Assembly: GCF_004216915.1 (NCBI RefSeq)
Contig: NZ_SGXD01000004.1
Span: 124,001-188,000 of the forward strand
Reading direction: 5' to 3'
From: Motilibacter rhizosphaerae
Lineage (GTDB): Bacteria; Actinomycetota; Actinomycetes; Motilibacterales; Motilibacteraceae
DNA: 64,000 nt
Below, one piece after another: positions 8,069-16,939 of this stretch. A model generated the notes under the pieces. That model did no database searches. It saw only the letters and a list, made by a program, of their open reading frames with translations, and had not been told where the DNA came from. How positions within the stretch are numbered: position 1 is the stretch's first letter; the number at the start of each line of letters is the position of its first letter. Both the position numbers and the translations under genes were made by a program.

Positions 8069-9477
8069 CCGACCGCGCCCTCCATCTGCAGCTCGATCAG
8101 GCGGTTCAGCTCGAGGGCGTACTCCATGGGGAGCTCGCGCGCGATGGGCTCGATGAACCCGCGCACGATCATCGCCATGGCCTCCTCCTCGGTCATGCCG
8201 CGCGACATCAGGTAGAACAGCTGGTCCTCGCTGACCTTCGAGACCGTGGCCTCGTGGCCCATCGAGACGTCGTCCTCGCGCACGTCGACGTACGGGTACG
8301 TGTCGGAGCGGCTGATCGTGTCGACCAGCAGCGCGTCGCAGCGCACCGTGCTCCTCGAGGAGTGCGCCCCCTCGAGGACCTGCACGAGGCCGCGGTACGA
8401 CGTGCGGCCTCCGCCGCGCGCCACCGACTTGCTCACGATCGAGGACGACGTGTGCGGGGCGGCGTGCACCATCTTCGAGCCCGCGTCCTGGTGCTGGCCC
8501 TCGCCGGCGAAGGCGATCGAGAGCGTCTCGCCCTTGGCGTGCTCGCCGACCAGCCAGACGGCGGGGTACTTCATGGTGACCTTGGAGCCGAGGTTGCCGT
8601 CGATCCACTCCATCGTCGCGCCCTCGTGGGCCACGGCCCGCTTGGTGACGAGGTTGTAGACGTTCGCCGACCAGTTCTGGATCGTGGTGTAGCGGACGCG
8701 GGCGCCCTTCTTCACGACGATCTCGACCACCGCGGAGTGCAGGCTGTCGCTGCTGTAGATCGGGGCGGTGCAGCCCTCGACGTAGTGGACGTAGGAGTCC
8801 TCGTCGGCGATGATCAGCGTCCGCTCGAACTGGCCCATGTTCTCGGTGTTGATGCGGAAGTAGGCCTGCAGCGGGATCTCCACGTGCACGCCCTTCGGCA
8901 CGTAGATGAACGACCCGCCCGACCACACCGCGGTGTTGAGCGCGGAGAACTTGTTGTCGCCGGTCGGGATGACCGTGCCGAAGTACTCCTTGAACAGCTC
9001 GGGGTGCTCGCGCAGGCCGCTGTCGGTGTCGAGGAAGATGACGCCCTGCTCCTCGAGGTCCTCGCGGATCTTGTGGTAGACGACCTCGGACTCGTACTGC
9101 GCGGCGACGCCGGCGACCAGGCGCTGCTTCTCGGCCTCGGGGATGCCCAGCCGGTCGTAGGTGCTCTTGATGTCGTCGGGGAGGTCCTCCCACGACGCGG
9201 CCTGCTTCTCCGTCGACTTGACGAAGTACTTGATGTTGTCGAAGTCGATGCCGGAGAGGTCGGAGCCCCAGGTCGGCATGGGCTTCTTGTGGAAGAGGCG
9301 CAGGCCCTTGAGCCGCATGTCGAGCATCCACTCGGGCTCGCCCTTGCGCGCGGAGATGTCGCGGACGACCTCCTCGGAGAGCCCGCGCTTGGCGACCGCG
9401 CCGGCCGCGTCGGAGTCGGCCCACCCGTACTCGTAGCGGCCCAGCCCATCGAGCTCGGGATGTGCGGTCTGCGTCAT
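8065..9477 (-). CDS. sufB: SufB Fe-S cluster scaffold
   Basis: The 470-residue protein is SufB, the cluster-building subunit of SufBC2D. Recognisable segments are [30 protein letters not shown], the [15 protein letters not shown] region, and the C-terminal [28 protein letters not shown]. Length matches actinobacterial SufB without an intein, whereas mycobacterial SufB often carries one. The ATG at 9477 overlaps the TGA of the sufR-like regulator by four bases, coupling regulator and scaffold translation. Confidence 0.96.
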
Positions 9478-10217
9478 CGGGACGTCCCTCCGTCGGTGGT
9501 GCGGGTCGTGCTGGTGGTCACGTGGGTCGTGCAGACGTGCTCGCCGTGGGCGAGGGTCGAGAGCCGGCGGGCGGGCGCGCCCACCAGCCGGGAGAAGGAG
9601 TCGGCCTCGGCGTCGCAGAGCTCGGGGAACTCCGCCGCCACGCTCTGCACGGGGCAGTGGCCCTGGCAGAGCTGCAGCCCGCCCGCGGGCCCCGTGCGGA
9701 CGCTGGCGGCGTAGCCGTCGGCGGCGAGCGCGGTCGCGAGGGCGTCGAGCCGGGCGCCGGGCTCCTCGCCCGCCGCCTGGACGCGAGGGGCGTAGCGGGC
9801 CTCGAGCTCCTCGACGCGGGCGCGGGCGAACGCGGACACCGCCTGGCGGCCGCCCTCGGCGGCGAGGAAGCGCAGGGCGGAGACCGCGAGGTCGTCGTAC
9901 GCGCTGGCGAGCGCCGCGTGCCCGGCACCGGTGAGGGCGAAGGCGCGAGCCGGGCGCCCCCTGCGGCGCGGGCCGCCGACCCCCCGGTCCTCGCGCGCCT
10001 CGACGTGGCCGAGGGCGACGAGGGCGTCGAGGTGGCGGCGGACCGCGGCGGGCGTGAGGGAGAGCTGCTCGGCGAGCGCGGCCGCGGTGGAGGGGCCGGA
10101 CTCGGAGATCGCCCGGGCGACGCGGTCGCGCGTGCGCGCGTCGACGGACGGGCCGTCCGGGGGCGCGCCGGCAGCACCGCGCGTCGGCGCGGCTGAGGTG
10201 CTCGGCGAGGTCCCCAC
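9474..10217 (-). CDS. sufR: SufR-type Fe-S-sensing transcriptional repressor
   Basis: About 247 residues. A winged helix-turn-helix of the DeoR/ArsR kind lies near the N-terminus ([21 protein letters not shown]), with a GPRRRGRP wing. The C-terminal half carries cysteines in [19 protein letters not shown] and GEHVCTTH, the pattern expected for the [Fe-S] cluster ligands of SufR. SufR represses the suf operon when it holds a cluster. The start is uncertain: GTG 10217 or GTG 10226, with no clear ribosome binding site for either. The operator-like palindrome at 10223-10237 covers the upstream GTG, so I favour 10217. The stop overlaps sufB by four bases. Confidence 0.88.
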
Positions 10218-10222
10218 GGATT

Positions 10223-10237
10223 GCACAACACCAGTGT
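10223..10237 (-). promoter_or_regulatory. Putative SufR operator
   Basis: On the minus strand the sequence reads ACACT-GGTGT-TGTGC, at the very start of sufR. From memory the mycobacterial SufR site is an imperfect palindrome ACACT-N5-TGTGA; this differs only at the last base. Its place between any promoter and the sufR coding region fits autorepression of the whole suf operon. The -10 element is not clear; TAGCGC or CACACT just upstream are candidates. Confidence 0.55.
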
Positions 10238-10365
10238 GCGCTAATTCGCTTCCCGCGCCCAGCGCGGCTCCCGTGGGCCGCGTCACGGAAGGCGACCCTA
10301 ACCCGGCGGCGTCCTCGGGCGGCGTGCCACATGTCTCAGCATCCGGACGGGGCGTCTCGCGGCGC

Positions 10366-10395
10366 TTGACCACGCTGAGTGACGAGTGGTCGAGT
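10366..10395 (+). promoter_or_regulatory. Possible promoter of the organosulfur operon
   Basis: TTGACC at 10366-10371 is a good -35 match. It is followed after 18 bases by TCGAGT (10390-10395), which has only the first and last T of an actinobacterial TANNNT -10. A start of transcription near 10402 would leave about 33 bases before the leader peptide ATG. The -35 is better supported than the -10. Confidence 0.3.
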
Positions 10396-10434
10396 GCTCC
10401 ACGACCGCACGAGCCCTGCTGGAAGGCCCTGGAC

Positions 10435-10575
10435 ATGACCGCCGCTGCGCACGGGACGCTCCGTCCTGCCGTGCTGCGTGCCGCCGTGCTCCAGCGCCAC
10501 CGCCTCGCCTCCTCGCCGGTCCCCCCGGGCACGCACTGTCGCGCCCGCTCGCGCTGTGCCTGTCACCAGCAGTAG
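10435..10575 (+). CDS. Putative cysteine leader peptide (46 aa)
   Basis: A 47-codon frame with ATG at 10435, GGAAGG eight bases upstream (10421-10426) and TAG at 10573-10575. The peptide is basic and ends THCRARSRCACHQQ. Codons 35, 41 and 43 are cysteine and all three are TGT, the rare cysteine codon in a genome this GC-rich. The frame lies alone between sufR and an organosulfur-use operon that is usually controlled by cysteine/sulfate supply. Cysteine-rich upstream reading frames that attenuate sulfur genes are known in mycobacteria and streptomycetes. I infer the same role here; the peptide itself does not match a family I know well. Confidence 0.55.
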   Translation: MTAAAHGTLRPAVLRAAVLQRHRLASSPVPPGTHCRARSRCACHQQ

Positions 10576-10579
10576 CCCC

Positions 10580-10602
10580 GGCGCTGCCGCGCCCGCAGCG
10601 CC
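10580..10602 (+). promoter_or_regulatory. Hairpin just after the leader-peptide stop codon
   Basis: GGCGCTGC (10580-10587) and GCAGCGCC (10595-10602) form a perfect 8-bp stem with a 7-base loop, starting five bases after the leader TAG. A ribosome stalled at the TGT codons or waiting at the stop would cover or free the first arm. GCAGCGCC occurs again at 10613-10620, so the first arm has two alternative partners. Confidence 0.45.
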
Positions 10603-10625
10603 CCCAGCGCCCGCAGCGCCCCCAG
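10590..10625 (+). repeat. 18-bp tandem duplication in the leader region
   Basis: The unit CGCCCGCAGCGCCCCCAG occurs twice in direct tandem (10590-10607 and 10608-10625) and is followed by a partial third copy (CGCAG). It lies between the leader peptide and the dioxygenase gene, and duplicates the right arm of the first hairpin. Confidence 0.85.
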
Positions 10626-10646
10626 CGCAGTCCGCCCGCCTGCCGC

Positions 10647-10679
10647 CCCCGCGCGGCCCGCTGCCCGCCCCGCGCGGGG
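10647..10679 (+). terminator. Putative attenuator hairpin before the dioxygenase gene
   Basis: CCCCGCGCGG (10647-10656) pairs perfectly with CCGCGCGGGG (10670-10679) across a 13-base loop. No U-rich tail follows, which is common for actinobacterial terminators. It stands 40 bases before the GTG of the first structural gene and after the leader peptide, the position expected for an attenuator. Confidence 0.4.
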
Positions 10680-10719
10680 AGCCCTCCTGCCCGCGCGCCA
10701 CCACGCCCCTGGAGCTCCC

Positions 10720-11625
10720 GTGACCGTCGTCATCCCCGCCTCCTCCCTCGTCGCCCGCGACCTCACCGTCGACACCGGCACCGAGGTGAGCGGCGTCCAG
10801 CTCGGCCCGCACCTCGACGAGGGCACCGTCGCGCACCTGCGCCGCCTGCTCGTCGCCCGCAAGGTGCTGTTCTTCCGCGGGCAGGGCGCCCTCGACACCG
10901 AGGGCCAGCTCGGCTTCGCCCGGCTGCTCGGGCCGCTCACGACCGCCCACCCGACCGTGCCCGCGGGCGACGGGAGCGGCCACGTCCTCCCGATCGACAG
11001 CGACGCCGGGCGCGCGGACGCCTGGCACACCGACGTGACGTTCGTGCCGCGGCCGCCGGCCTTCTCCGTGCTGCGCGCGGTGACGCTGCCGCTCACCGGC
11101 GGGGACACGGTGTGGGCCAACACCACCCGCGCGTACGAGCGCCTCCCCCGCCCCCTGCAGGTGCTCGCCGACGAGCTGCGCGCCGTGCACACCAACGCCC
11201 ACGACTACGGCCGCCCGGTGCCCGCGCAGGGCACGGCCGCGCACCGGCACTTCGAGCAGTTCGTCGCGCAGGTCTTCGAGACCGAGCACCCCGTCGTGCG
11301 CGTCCATCCGGAGACCGGTGAGCGGACGCTGCTGCTCGGCGGCTTCGCCCGCACGCTCGTCGGCCTCGGTGCGCGGGACTCCGCCCGGCTCATCGAGCTG
11401 CTGCAGGGCCACGTCACGCGCCCGGAGAACCTCGTCCGCTGGTCGTGGCGCCCGGGCGACGTGGCCGTCTGGGACAACCGCGCCACCCAGCACTACGCCG
11501 TCAACGACTACGGCGACGTCGAGCGCCGCCTGCAGCGCGTCACGGTGGCCGGCGACCTGCCGGTCGGCGTCGACGGCCGCCCGAGCACGGGCCTGCGCGG
11601 CGACGCGTCGCACTACTCCGCCTGA
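10720..11625 (+). CDS. TauD/TfdA-family 2-oxoglutarate-dependent dioxygenase
   Basis: The 301-residue protein has the Fe(II)-binding triad of the TauD family: His103 and Asp105 in AWHTDVTF, and His258 in RATQHYAVNDY. The 2-oxoglutarate-binding arginine is probably one of the ERR residues near 269-270, and DTVWANTTRAYE is another family signature. TauD-type enzymes hydroxylate taurine, other sulfonates or alkyl sulfates and release sulfite or sulfate. Followed by an Ssu-type transporter and FMN monooxygenase, it probably acts on an organosulfur substrate, although the exact one is unknown. The GTG start follows GGAGCTCCC; that short self-complementary site could itself be masked. Confidence 0.88.
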   Translation: MTVVIPASSLVARDLTVDTGTEVSGVQLGPHLDEGTVAHLRRLLVARKVLFFRGQGALDTEGQLGFARLLGPLTTAHPTVPAGDGSGHVLPIDSDAGRADAWHTDVTFVPRPPAFSVLRAVTLPLTGGDTVWANTTRAYERLPRPLQVLADELRAVHTNAHDYGRPVPAQGTAAHRHFEQFVAQVFETEHPVVRVHPETGERTLLLGGFARTLVGLGARDSARLIELLQGHVTRPENLVRWSWRPGDVAVWDNRATQHYAVNDYGDVERRLQRVTVAGDLPVGVDGRPSTGLRGDASHYSA

Positions 11626-11663
11626 CCCCTCCCCCGCACGCACGACACCCGCAGAAGGACGCC

Positions 11664-12701
11664 ATGCGCACGAAGACCCTCCTCCCGCTCGTCGCCTCGC
11701 TGGCCCTGGTGCTCGGCGCCACGACCGCCTGCGGCTCGGGCGAGCAGAAGGCCTCCGCCAGCTCGAGCGGCAGCGACAGCACCGTCGAGCTCCGCTACCA
11801 GGGCTGGGCCAACCAGGTCACCCTCCCCGAGCTCGCCGAGGCCCTCGGCTACCTCAAGGGCGTCAAGCTGAAGTACGTCGGGAACACGATCTCCGGTCCG
11901 CAGGACATCGGGGCCGCCGCCGCTGGACAGGTGGACTTCGGCGGGGCCTTCGACGGCGCGGTGGCGAAGCTCATCCGCTCGGGCAGCCCGGTGAAGGCCG
12001 TCATCGCCTACTACGGCTCCGACAAGGGCGCCTACAACGGGTTCTACGTGCTGGACAGCAGCAAGATCCGCACGGCGAAGGACCTCGTCGGCAAGAAGGT
12101 GGGCGTCAACACCCTCGGCGGCCACAACGAGGCGGTGCTCGACACCTACCTGCTGAAGAACGGCCTGACCTGGGACCAGGTGAAGTCCGTCCAGCTCGTC
12201 CCGCTGCCCCCGCCGAACACCGACCAGGCGCTGCGCGCGCACCAGATCGACGTCGCCGCGCTCACCGGCCAGTTCCGCGAGCAGACGCTGGCCAAGGGCG
12301 GAGTCCGCGCGGTCTTCAGCGACTCGCAGTACTTCGGTGACTTCAGCGCCGGCACGTACATCTTCCGCAAGGACTTCATCGCGAAGCACCCGGCCGCGGT
12401 GAAGGCGTTCACCGCCGGTGTCGCGAAGGCCATCGAGTGGACGAAGAGCACGCCGCACGACCAGGTGATCGCCGAGTACACGAAGATCATCGAGGGCCGC
12501 AAGCGCAACGAGACGACGAGCAGCCTCAAGTACTGGACGAGCGCCGGTGTCGCGACCAAGGGCGGCGTCATCCAGGACAGCGACTTCACCCGCTGGGGCG
12601 ACTGGCTCGAGCAGACCGGGTCGGTCAAGAAAGCCGACCTCGACGTGAAGTCGCTCTACACCAACGAGTTCAACCCGTACGCGTCCGGGAGCGCCTCATG
12701 A
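11664..12701 (+). CDS. SsuA-like sulfonate/taurine ABC transporter binding lipoprotein
   Basis: The 345-residue protein begins with a lipoprotein signal (hydrophobic stretch then LGATTACG, Cys23 as lipidation site), followed by an SsuA/NMT1-type solute-binding fold: ELRYQGWANQVTLPELAEAL, the IGAAAAGQVDFGG region and LVGKKVGVNTLGG. This is the family that binds aliphatic sulfonates, sulfate esters, taurine or nitrate. The ATG at 11664 follows AGAAGGACGCC. Its last codons overlap the ATPase gene by four bases. Linkage to a TauD-like dioxygenase and FMN monooxygenase supports an organosulfur ligand. Confidence 0.88.
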   Translation: MRTKTLLPLVASLALVLGATTACGSGEQKASASSSGSDSTVELRYQGWANQVTLPELAEALGYLKGVKLKYVGNTISGPQDIGAAAAGQVDFGGAFDGAVAKLIRSGSPVKAVIAYYGSDKGAYNGFYVLDSSKIRTAKDLVGKKVGVNTLGGHNEAVLDTYLLKNGLTWDQVKSVQLVPLPPPNTDQALRAHQIDVAALTGQFREQTLAKGGVRAVFSDSQYFGDFSAGTYIFRKDFIAKHPAAVKAFTAGVAKAIEWTKSTPHDQVIAEYTKIIEGRKRNETTSSLKYWTSAGVATKGGVIQDSDFTRWGDWLEQTGSVKKADLDVKSLYTNEFNPYASGSAS

Positions 12702-13534
12702 CCGCTGCGATCCGCCTGGACTCCGTGACCAAGGAGTTCCGGCCCCCCGGCGGGGGCACCTTCACCGCCCTGCAGGACGTCTCCTTCGACGTCGCGCCCG
12801 GGGAGTTCCTCGCCCTCGTGGGCCCGAGCGGCTGCGGGAAGTCCACACTGCTCGACCTCCTGGGCGGACTGAGCGGACCGACCAGCGGCCAGGTCCTCGT
12901 GGACGGCCGGCCCGTCACGGGGCCGGGGCTGGACCGCGGCCTCGTGTTCCAGCAGTACGCCCTGCTGCCCTGGCGCACTGCGCAGTCCAACGTCGAGTTC
13001 GGGCTCGAGGCGAAGTCCGTGCCGCGGCGCAAGCGCGCAGCGCTCGCCCGCGAGTTCCTCGACCTGGTGGGACTGCGGGGCTTCGAGGACCGCTACCCGC
13101 ACCAGCTGTCGGGCGGGATGCGCCAGCGCGTGGCGATCGCCCGCAGCCTCGCGTTCGACCCCGACGTGCTGCTGATGGACGAGCCGTTCGCGGCGCTCGA
13201 CGCGCAGACCCGCGAGAACCTCCAGCTCGAGCTGCTGCGGATCTGGGAGCAGACCGGCAAGACGGTCGTGTTCATCACGCACGGCATCGACGAGGCCGTG
13301 CTGCTCGGCCAGCGCGTGGCCGTCATGACCTCGCGCCCCGGGCGCATCAAGCAGGTCGTCGACATCCCGCTGCCGCTCGCCCGCCGGCGCGGCGAGGACG
13401 TGCGCTCCGACCCGGAGTTCGTCCGGCTGCGCCACGAGGTGTGGCGCCTGCTGCAGGACGAGGTGCGCCAGGCGCAGGCCGCCGAGGGCACCGCGGTCCC
13501 CTCACCCCCCAAGGAGGTCGTCCCCGTTGGCTAG
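12698..13534 (+). CDS. SsuB-like ABC transporter ATPase
   Basis: The 278-residue protein is the ATP-binding subunit of a nitrate/sulfonate/taurine-type importer. Walker A is GPSGCGKST (residues 42-50), the Q-loop is [10 protein letters not shown], the signature LSGGMRQR (138-144), Walker B is [11 protein letters not shown], and the switch histidine lies in FITHGIDEA. The Q-loop and signature are those of the SsuB/TauB group. The ATG overlaps the binding-protein stop by four bases, and the last codons overlap the permease start. Confidence 0.93.
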
Positions 13535-14390
13535 CACCCTCGCCCCTGCCCAGCAGGCTGTCGCCGCCCCCGCGGCCGCCGTCCCCACCGCCGTCGAGCG
13601 ACGTCGCCCGCGAGCCGGTGGAGCGGTCCGGGCGGCCCGTACCCTGCTGCTCAGGAGTTCGGCGATCGTCATCTTCCTCGCGGTGTGGGAGATCGTCCCG
13701 CGCGTCGGGCTGGCCGACCGGGCCCTCTTCCCGCCGTTCTCCGACGACGTCGACGCCTGGTGGCACCTCGCGCGCAACGGCATGCTGTGGAGCAACACCT
13801 CGGCCAGCTTGAAGCGCTCGCTCGCCGGCTTCGTCATCGCCGTGGGGATCGGTGTCCCGCTCGGCCTGCTCATCGCGTGGTACCGGCCCGTACGCCACTT
13901 CCTGCTGCCGCTGCTCGAGCTCTGGCGCAACACTGCGGCGCTCGCGCTGCTGCCGGTGTTCACGCTGTTCCTCGGTATCGGCGAGACGTCCAAGATCGCG
14001 ATCGTCTTCTACGCGTGCCTGTTCCCCGTGCTGCTCAACACGATCAGCGGTGTCGGCGAGGTCGACCCCCTGCTCGTGAAGTCCGCGCGCTCGCTGGGCT
14101 TCTCGTCGCTGCAGCTGTTCCGCAAGGTCGTGCTGCCGGCCGCGGTGCCCTCGATCTTCACAGGCGTCCGGATGGCCGGAGCCTCCTCGATCCTGGTCCT
14201 GCTCGCGGCCGAGATGGGCGGGGCCAAGGCCGGGCTCGGCTACGACATCATCCGCACCCAGCAGAACTTCGAGATCCCGAACATGTACGCCGGGATCATC
14301 ACCATCGCGCTGCTCGGCGTCCTCATCAACGCCGCCCTGGTCCGCCTCGAGCGCCGCGCCTCGCGCTGGCGCGACGACTTCCGCCGCTAG
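13527..14390 (+). CDS. SsuC-like ABC transporter permease
   Basis: The 287-residue membrane protein has about six hydrophobic segments and the cytoplasmic EAA-like loop [22 protein letters not shown], typical of BPD_transp_1 permeases of the SsuC/TauC type. A long N-terminal polar tail of about 35 residues precedes the first segment. The start is TTG at 13527, chosen because a strong AAGGAGGT lies eight bases upstream at 13511-13518, inside the end of the ATPase gene. It completes the importer with the preceding two genes. Confidence 0.9.
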
Positions 14391-14410
14391 CCCGAACCGG
14401 AGTGACCGAC

Positions 14411-15811
14411 GTGTCCCGTCACCTGCACCTCAACGCCTTCCTCATGAACACCGGCCACCACGAGGCGGCCTGGCGCCACGAGGTCTCGCGCCCGGAGCGA
14501 GCCCACTCGGCCCGCCACTTCATCGAGCTCGCGCAGATCGCCGAGCGCGGCAAGCTCGACTCGATCTTCTTCGCCGACGGTGTCGCCGTGCGCGGCAACG
14601 TCCGGCACAACACGCAGGGCGGGCTCGACCCGCTGGCGATCCTCAACGCCGTCGCCACGCACACCGAGCACATCGGCCTCATCGCGACGGTCTCCACGTC
14701 GTTCCACGCACCCTTCACCGTGGCGCGCGCCTTCGCGACGCTCGACCACCTCTCGGGCGGCCGCGCCGGCTGGAACATCGTCACCTCGGGGACCGAGGCG
14801 GAGGCGCAGAACTACAACCTGGACAAGCACTACGACCACGGCGAGCGCTACCGCCGCGCCGCGGAGTTCGTCGAGCTGACGCAGAAGCTCTGGGACTCGT
14901 GGGAGGACGACGCCCTCGTCATCGACAAGTCGACCGGGCTCTACGCCGAGACCGCGAAGATCCACGAGGTCGCGCACCGCGGCGAGTTCTACTCCGTACG
15001 CGGTCCGCTGACCACGCCGCGCTCACCGCAGGGGCGCCCGGTCCTCGTGCAGGCGGGGTCCTCGGAGGACGGCAAGGAGTTCGCCGCGCAGTACGCCGAG
15101 GCCATCTTCACCGCCTGGCAGACGCTCGGGGAGGCGCAGGACTTCTACAGCGACATCAAGGCCCGCGCCGTCCGCCACGGCCGCGACCCCCGGCTGCTCA
15201 AGGTGCTCCCCGGGATCGTGCCGGTCCTCGGCAGCACCGAGGCCGAGGCCAAGCGCCTCGAGGCCGAGCTCGAGGAGCTCCTCGTCTGGGACTACGGCCT
15301 GGCGCAGCTCTCCGGGATGCTCACCGTGCCGCTCACGCACGACCACCTCGACGTCGCGGTCTCCGACCTCGACCTGCCCGACGAGTCCGAGATCAACGGC
15401 AACAAGAGCCGCTTCACGCTCGTCCGCGACCTCGGCCGCCGCGAAGGGCTCACGGTCCGCCAGGTCATCGCCCGGCTCGGCGGCGGGCGCGGCCACCGGA
15501 CCTTCACGGGGACGCCGGAGCAGGTGGCCGACACGCTGCAGCACTGGTTCGAGGACGGTGCCGCCGACGGCTTCAACGTCATGCCGCCGCTGCAGCCCTC
15601 GCTGCTCGAGGCGTTCGTCGACACGGTCGTGCCGATCCTGCAGGAGCGCGGGCTCTTCCGGCGCGAGTACGAGGGGGCGACGCTCCGCGACCGCTTCGGC
15701 CTCCCCCGCCCCGAGAGCCAGTACGCCGTGGCCCCGTCCACGACGCTGGACTCCGCGCCCTCCGAGGGCGGCTTCGCGGGCCGGCGCGTCCCTGCGCCGG
15801 TGAGCGCGTGA
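14411..15811 (+). CDS. NtaA/SnaA/DszA-family FMNH2-dependent monooxygenase
   Basis: The 466-residue protein belongs to the NtaA/SnaA/SoxA branch of bacterial luciferase-like flavin monooxygenases. It opens with HLHLNAFLMNTGHHEAAWR and contains RAGWNIVTS, ENYNLDKHYDHGERYRRA-like and GSSEDGKEFAAQYAE segments that are standard in this family. These enzymes oxidise sulfonates, sulfones (DszA) or nitrilotriacetate with reduced FMN. The start is GTG 14411, with GGAG eight bases upstream; an in-frame GTG at 14402 overlaps that site. Two flavin reductases follow, which would supply FMNH2. Substrate is unknown, but the operon context says organosulfur. Confidence 0.88.
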   Translation: MSRHLHLNAFLMNTGHHEAAWRHEVSRPERAHSARHFIELAQIAERGKLDSIFFADGVAVRGNVRHNTQGGLDPLAILNAVATHTEHIGLIATVSTSFHAPFTVARAFATLDHLSGGRAGWNIVTSGTEAEAQNYNLDKHYDHGERYRRAAEFVELTQKLWDSWEDDALVIDKSTGLYAETAKIHEVAHRGEFYSVRGPLTTPRSPQGRPVLVQAGSSEDGKEFAAQYAEAIFTAWQTLGEAQDFYSDIKARAVRHGRDPRLLKVLPGIVPVLGSTEAEAKRLEAELEELLVWDYGLAQLSGMLTVPLTHDHLDVAVSDLDLPDESEINGNKSRFTLVRDLGRREGLTVRQVIARLGGGRGHRTFTGTPEQVADTLQHWFEDGAADGFNVMPPLQPSLLEAFVDTVVPILQERGLFRREYEGATLRDRFGLPRPESQYAVAPSTTLDSAPSEGGFAGRRVPAPVSA

Positions 15812-16344
15812 GCGCCCCGGGACGGCCCGGCGTCGTCACGGTCTCGGGCAACCCGCGGCCGGGCAGCCGCACCACTCGGCTGGCCGTCGCGCTCGGTGAC
15901 GCCCTGCAGGAGGCGCTGCGGCTGCCGGGAGCCGCGCAGCACCTCGAGCTCGCGACCCTGCCCGCGCCCTTCGGGGCCGACGCGGGCGCGGCGCTGGCCG
16001 AGCCGCTCGCCGCCCTGCGCAGCGCACGGGTCGCGGTCATCGCGACGCCGACGTACAAGGCGAGCTACACCGGCCTGCTCAAGGCGTTCGTCGACCTGCT
16101 GCCCCCGGCTGCCCTCGCGGGCATGCTCGCGGTCCCGGTCCTCACGCTCGGCGCCCCCGGCCACACGCTCGCGGCCGAGGTGCACCTGCGCCCGCTGCTG
16201 CACGAGCTCGGCGCGACCACGCCGACGGCGGCGGTCACGGTCCTCGACGCCGAGCTCGCCGACCCGGAGGCCGCAGGACGCGCGTGGGCCGAGCGGCTGG
16301 TGCCGAGCCTGCGGCCGCTGGTGACCGAGGGCGTGCCCGCGTGA
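15808..16344 (+). CDS. NADPH-dependent FMN reductase (SsuE-like)
   Basis: The 178-residue protein has the flavodoxin-like FMN reductase fold: GNPRPGSRT near residue 14 is the phosphate-binding loop and VAVIATPTYKASYTGLLKAFVDLLP is the family signature (SsuE / NADPH_dep_FMN_red). It would supply FMNH2 to the monooxygenase just upstream. The GTG overlaps that gene's stop by four bases. A second, unrelated flavin reductase follows, so the operon carries two. Confidence 0.88.
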   Translation: MSAPGRPGVVTVSGNPRPGSRTTRLAVALGDALQEALRLPGAAQHLELATLPAPFGADAGAALAEPLAALRSARVAVIATPTYKASYTGLLKAFVDLLPPAALAGMLAVPVLTLGAPGHTLAAEVHLRPLLHELGATTPTAAVTVLDAELADPEAAGRAWAERLVPSLRPLVTEGVPA

Positions 16345-16853
16345 GCGCCCTGCTCCCCCCTCGCGTGCTCAGCGCACCGTCGGCGGCGCTGCGCGGCTTC
16401 TTCCGCCGCTACGCCGCCGGCGTCAGCATCGTCACGCTCCCCGGCGCCGCCGGCCCCGTCGGCTTCACCGCGAGCTCGCTCGCGTCCGTCTCGCTCGACC
16501 CGCCGCTCGTGAGCTTCAACGTCTCGCGCACGGCGTCGAGCTGGCCCGCCCTGCAGGACGCCCGGCACGTCGGGGTGCACCTGCTCGGCGAGCGCGACCG
16601 CAGCACCGCCACGGTGTTCGCGACGTCGGGCGCCGACCGCTTCGCCGGGGTGGAGTGGCGCGAGGGCGACCACGGCGTACCCCTCCTGAGGACGTCGGGC
16701 GGGTGGCTGCTCGGCCGGGTCGTCGAGCGGGTGGCGGCGGGCGACAGCACGCTCGTCATCGCCGAGGTCCTCGACGCGGCGCTCGCCGACGGCCTGGACG
16801 ACGGGCACGAGCCGCTCGTGTGGCACGGGGGTGCGTTCCGCCGGGCGGTATGA
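16341..16853 (+). CDS. Flavin reductase (FMN-binding split-barrel, HpaC-like)
   Basis: The 170-residue protein is a flavin reductase-like domain protein: FRRYAAGVSIVTL, GPVGFTASSLASVSLDPPLVSFNVS and HLGVHLLGE-like segments are those of two-component monooxygenase reductases. It provides a second possible source of reduced flavin for the operon's monooxygenase. The start is the GTG at 16341 overlapping the previous stop by four bases; an open frame continues upstream only as overlap with that gene. A strong hairpin follows 35 bases downstream and probably ends the operon. Confidence 0.88.
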   Translation: MSALLPPRVLSAPSAALRGFFRRYAAGVSIVTLPGAAGPVGFTASSLASVSLDPPLVSFNVSRTASSWPALQDARHVGVHLLGERDRSTATVFATSGADRFAGVEWREGDHGVPLLRTSGGWLLGRVVERVAAGDSTLVIAEVLDAALADGLDDGHEPLVWHGGAFRRAV

Positions 16854-16913: not shown

Positions 16914-16939
16914 CCTCGCGCGCACCTACCATGGAGGCC

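Follow-up and report, generated by a model that had tools for sequence, protein, structure and literature searches.

Leader region and chromosomal setting

A short open reading frame that carries cysteine codons close to its end and lies in front of genes for the use of organic sulfur raises the question of whether it encodes a regulatory leader peptide and of how such a leader would be read out. The frame studied here is located in a stretch of 64,000 nucleotides of the Motilibacter rhizosphaerae genome (the window, to which all coordinates refer). From the evidence presented below we conclude that it is probably (rough probability 0.68) a cis-acting leader peptide, which would sense the supply of cysteinyl-tRNA and adjust the organosulfur operon downstream. 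It extends from ATG (10435) to TAG (10575) with the predicted product MTAAAHGTLRPAVLRAAVLQRHRLASSPVPPGTHCRARSRCACHQQ, and the preliminary description of this DNA was right in assigning 46 codons and a ribosome-binding site of its own to it. The same description had stressed three terminal cysteine codons, all TGT; these are indeed found at positions 35, 41 and 43, but they are scattered through the final 12 codons and are not contiguous. The elements of the leader, some of which are compared with those of G001, a genome of the same genus, are as follows.

10366..10395, plus strand: candidate promoter, TTGACC (10366-10371), 18-nt spacer, TCGAGT (10390-10395); aligns with G001
10421..10426, plus strand: Shine-Dalgarno-like GGAAGG, 8 nt 5' of the leader ATG, assigned from sequence
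10435..10575, plus strand: putative leader peptide ORF, 46 codons; homologous ORF at the matching locus of G001, silent change being frame-specific
10516..10542, plus strand: conserved core PVPPGTxCR, codons 28-36, with PPG preceding Cys; same in G001 save residue x, remaining differences silent
10537..10539, plus strand: conserved TGT, Cys codon 35, proposed sensing codon; TGT-CGC in the window and G001
10555..10563, plus strand: TGT codons 41 and 43; missing from G001 in the alignment

The counterpart of the candidate promoter in G001 reads TTGACA-18-TTCGGT and is located upstream of the G001 leader. In the window, the -10 element (TCGAGT) is a poor match to the consensus, and a sigma-70 scan found nothing. 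The codon usage of the leader lies between that of genes and that of off-frame DNA. An 81-codon Pro/Ala-rich open frame (10478-10723), which is out of frame with the leader and ends with GTGA over the tauD start, probably arose by chance in GC-rich DNA.

The leader had been placed directly upstream of genes that release sulfur from organic compounds, and this identity of the operon was confirmed by Pfam and NCBIfam.

10720..16853, plus strand: organosulfur operon, seven genes
10720-11625, plus strand: tauD
11655-12701, plus strand: SsuA-type substrate-binding protein (SBP)
12695-13534, plus strand: ABC ATPase
13527-14390, plus strand: permease
14450-15811, plus strand: NtaA/DmoA-type FMN monooxygenase
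15811-16344, plus strand: SsuE-type FMN reductase
16338-16853, plus strand: flavin reductase

Since the genes encode TauD, an SBP, an ABC ATPase, a permease, a monooxygenase and two reductases, the name organosulfur operon is fair. A sufR-like gene lies upstream of the leader on the opposite strand. In three genomes of the same family (G002, G003 and G004), the sufR-like gene adjoins the ABC transporter gene, which begins near 16938 in the window. Homology to these genomes ends at about 10307 and restarts at about 16920, and the leader and the operon therefore represent an inserted block relative to them. The segment 10230-10307 is accordingly the older sufR promoter region. The sequence TTGCACAACACCAGTGTG (10220-10240) at the sufR start is nearly identical in G001, G002 and G003 and is a probable operator of the SufR-like regulator.

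Conservation of the leader in a second genome of the genus

A search of 394 genomes of the class with the 46-residue peptide yielded one clear match besides itself, G001 (E 1.5e-5, 56% identity), the matches in other genomes being weaker (E 7e-4 and up); none of the nine extra loci from this search that were read was a short cysteine leader. A leader profile found the two congeners alone among the 394 class genomes and only the window's own leader among 396 genomes of the phylum. The strict pattern PVPPGTxCR gave 7 further matches in the class genomes and no convincing leader; these look like chance occurrences, read within larger genes. Plasmids, viral contigs and the PDB contained no matches to the new-type leader. 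The conservation of the leader described here is therefore that between two genomes, the window's and G001.

In G001 (L152:1524-4790) the leader occupies the same chromosomal interval, with sufR on one side and the ABC transporter on the other; after it comes a gene for an FMN reductase orthologous to the SsuE-type protein of the window (68% identity). G001 does not have the part from tauD to the monooxygenase between leader and reductase, and a different gene lies upstream; a 13-codon frame between its leader and the reductase may be a deletion scar. Read from a GTG start, the G001 peptide is (V)DTQRPAALPGPALARHLLSMSPVPPGTSCRDLARR, and the residues common to both peptides are RPA.L....L.RH.L..SPVPPGT.CR. 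The 27 codons that align give pS 0.55 and pN 0.26, whereas pS does not exceed pN in the two shifted frames (pS/pN 0.18/0.44 and 0.33/0.37). Within SPVPPGTxCR all changes are silent apart from the variable residue x. Conservation of the frame and of its TGT codons in relatives had been named as a check of the proposal: the frame and TGT35 are kept in G001, whereas nothing there corresponds to codons 41 and 43, and the G001 leader contains a single cysteine. Thus, the comparison does not support the view that all three TGT codons matter; codon 35 alone is conserved.

Relation to the NF042934 leader family

The actinobacterial "putative leader peptide" is represented by the NCBIfam entry NF042934 (cis_reg_atten; RxHVDLxRxxSxxCR), a profile of 19 positions with a cut-off of 27 bits. 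A canonical leader of this family at the window site was considered and rejected: the window leader did not match the profile at E up to 10, its locus was not among the matches when the genome was searched at E up to 1, and hhalign produced no alignment between the two-member new-type alignment and 18 canonical leaders. The spacing from RH to CR differs by two residues between the new type and the canonical leaders. The leader is accordingly not filed as a member, and the earlier statement that the peptide is unlike known leader families holds. Decay from a canonical leader is a possibility.

The preliminary description had further assumed the principle known from mycobacterial sulfur genes with a different peptide, and had suggested a search in front of TauD operons elsewhere. 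The peptide is new; the principle, however, is not new for this operon, since the orthologous operon of Trujillonella endophytica (TauD 70% identical) is preceded by an NF042934 leader, MRCGDTVLLVGRPHLDLVRYAGALCRCC (34.5 bits). A leader of the type RGHVDLCRVASALCRPFQP is likewise present in four Streptomyces-like genomes whose TauD is closely related. The search thus recovered canonical cysteine leaders, but before other TauD operons, which have no canonical leader, it revealed no uORF of the new type accompanied by a TTGAC element. The window's own genome harbors an NF042934-type leader above the curated cut-off before a rhodanese gene and a second one, below the cut-off, before a flavin reductase gene; in G001 there is one, which precedes a transporter operon whose binding protein is of the NMT1 type and is divergent from the G001 TauD gene. 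A cysteine-rich frame in an uncultured actinobacterium (L083:2836-2990), which ends in NICRWCFCEGCDQRWTHEERP with its stop just 5' of a TauD gene, is possibly another leader type.

TGT codons at the key cysteine

That TGT is very rare, as had been claimed, was verified against the genome: the 317 called genes in 400 kb contain 5 TGT and 727 TGC codons (5/732). None of the 1134 ATG-started short ORFs in this 400-kb sample has three TGT within its last 12 codons, and neither does any of the 2664 short ORFs started by ATG, GTG or TTG; any three cysteine codons within the last 12 occur in 7 and 19 of these ORFs, respectively.

We also tallied the cysteine codons of canonical-type NF042934 leaders (drawn from L106-L126, which are family f1 genomes, and from L009, L135, L137, L139 and L140). 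The invariant cysteine is TGT in 22/22, while the remaining cysteine codons of the same leaders comprise 4 TGT and 19 TGC. A C precedes the invariant TGT in 21 of the 22, and the following codon begins with CG in 20; the new-type leader shows C-TGT-CG in the window and G001 alike. As judged from sequence, this shared C-TGT-CG appears to be the strongest functional link between the new type and the canonical leaders. The initial emphasis on TGT is even better founded than it first seemed, because the invariant cysteine of the canonical leaders is TGT as well. The bias at the invariant cysteine is an observation of codon-level selection within the known family NF042934, and in the literature available to us we found no paper describing TGT selection at this position. 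UGU and UGC should both be decoded by a single tRNA-Cys; one might guess that UGU was chosen for slower wobble decoding.

RNA between the leader and tauD

The RNA between the leader stop and tauD contains the following features.

10580..10602, plus strand: 8-bp hairpin, 4 nt from stop to stem; folds alone at -15.2 kcal/mol; not kept in G001
10647..10679, plus strand: 10-bp GC stem; folds alone at -24 kcal/mol; no T-run; not kept in G001
10576..10719, plus strand: C-rich, G-poor tract, possible Rho-loading RNA; C 84, G 43, skew 0.32

The two hairpins, which had been interpreted as an attenuator, exist as 8-bp and 10-bp stems, but this function is not borne out. Both lie within C-rich tandem-repeat DNA, the leader region of G001 forms different stems, no T-run follows either window stem, and the whole leader fold is no better than that of shuffled sequences (z -0.51). 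An intrinsic terminator or classical trp-type attenuator was rejected, as neither the window nor G001 contains a terminator-like site; a riboswitch or other Rfam RNA family was rejected too, with just two sub-threshold chance matches in 9400-11000.

The excess of C over G after the stop is the same in both genomes (skew 0.32 over 144 nt in the window and 0.32 over 88 nt in G001). In a comparison that was devised after the sequence had been seen, and is thus post hoc, the background skew was 0.00 +/- 0.10 across 33,120 windows, 0.09% of which reach the value of the tract, and 0.03 +/- 0.12 in 60 upstream gaps, none of which (0/60) reaches it. Canonical leaders have a mean post-stop skew of 0.23 (Mann-Whitney p 4e-6 vs the 60 upstream gaps). 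The C-rich, G-poor tract after the leader stop suggests an involvement of Rho. For actinobacterial cys leaders without terminators, Rho had already been proposed by Seliverstov et al., who called their own prediction weak (PMC1262725). The C-rich, G-poor RNA past the stops of the canonical leaders in L106-L126 suggests, as a separate observation, a Rho read-out for the whole NF042934 family.

Proposed mechanism and alternative explanations

Cysteine attenuation fits these features best, with a read-out that may be Rho-dependent or translational, the cysteine response itself being what we infer from the sequence. If cysteine is plentiful, the ribosome would pass UGU35 and terminate at UAG; Rho could then load onto the uncovered C-rich tract, and transcription would stop before tauD. 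If cysteine is scarce, the ribosome would stall at UGU35 near the leader end, in this species perhaps also at codons 41 and 43, and the stalled ribosome would keep Rho off or alter the local folding, allowing expression of the operon. The Pro-Val-Pro-Pro-Gly before the cysteine is of a slow-translation type and may hold the ribosome, making the UGU step decisive. However, a ribosome stalled at codon 35 would reach only partway to the C-rich tract, which speaks against this model. In E. coli reporters, PPG stalls ribosomes and, when EF-P is lacking, causes termination by Rho (PMC5021804). Such a stall exposes the RNA to Rho, but one at the very end of a leader may mask it, so the sign of the PPG effect is unpredictable here. 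Cysteine-codon sORFs of M. smegmatis act by attenuation, according to the passages in which they are cited (PMC9031893, PMC13236596).

It is possible, though on the less likely side, that the same leader is read out on translation and without Rho, the cysteine stall refolding the RNA and freeing the ribosome-binding site of tauD (GGAG, 10710-10713). Strong local stems are present, and attenuation on translation is reported for the polycysteine sORFs of M. smegmatis in the part of that literature available to us; yet the structure of the region is no better than that of shuffles, the stems are not kept in G001, and the bias of C over G would be left unexplained. A more far-reaching version of cysteine attenuation, which we consider rather doubtful, is that the leader belongs to a distinct class of its own, in which the nascent PVPPG arrest motif and the single UGU jointly decide expression, a PPG pause being followed by UGU decoding, and, more broadly, that actinobacterial cysteine leaders sense the UGU codon itself and not just cysteine.

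An arrest peptide, in which PVPPG and contacts in the exit tunnel sense another cue (EF-P activity, proline or a small molecule) and the cysteine codon is incidental, seems unlikely to us: conservation is higher in the PVPPGT core than in the count of cysteine codons, and PPG is a known stall motif, but the sole conserved cysteine uses the rare TGT, as in 22/22 canonical cysteine leaders, and the downstream genes are sulfur genes. It is more improbable still that the ORF is untranslated, with the similarity to G001 left over from DNA once held in common and chance TGT codons, because, despite a weak coding signal, the missing family match and its presence in two genomes only (among 394 class and 396 phylum genomes), pS exceeds pN in this frame alone, no comparable ORF occurs in 400 kb, and the orthologous operons lead one to expect a cysteine leader here.

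Comparison with known leader peptides

In our best reading, the leader is a variant of the cysteine attenuation of actinobacteria that is specific to this lineage. This suggests that the lineage has replaced, or independently evolved, the peptide of a cysteine attenuator and kept the rare codon as well as its location and the C-rich RNA that follows, which would separate the possible needs of the mechanism (UGU, placement, accessible RNA) from its variable part, the peptide. For NF042934, still named just "putative", it raises the question of why the sensing cysteine is always UGU, a codon nearly absent from genes.

TnaC of the E. coli tna operon senses free tryptophan via its nascent chain, and its leader stall lies beside a Rho loading region. 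A leader stall near a Rho loading region is also the read-out proposed here; unlike TnaC, the window leader would respond to the supply of Cys-tRNA.

The leaderless polycysteine sORFs of mycobacteria (Canestrari et al. 2020), as described in papers that cite them, share with the window ORF its small size, cysteine codons close to the stop, the sulfur genes that follow and the attenuation principle. In contrast to them, the window ORF has no contiguous cysteine run (35, 41, 43), possesses an SD-like site 8 nt before its ATG, likely has a 5' UTR, contains the conserved PVPPG and precedes a sulfonate operon. The -10-like element about 40 nt 5' of the ATG argues against a leaderless transcript in the window.

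With the NF042934 leaders, the new type shares a short leader preceding sulfur genes (in the members examined), which in other genera precedes the orthologous operon, a CTTGAC-like -35 element shortly upstream, a key cysteine encoded by TGT and followed by Arg, and C-rich RNA past the stop. Unlike them, it has SPVPPGT instead of the HVDL core, and the distance from the cysteine to the stop is 21-36 nt compared to 6-18 nt in canonical leaders. By sequence it is thus a separate type, found in one genus so far, which by position, codon choice and downstream RNA would work like the known actinobacterial leaders.
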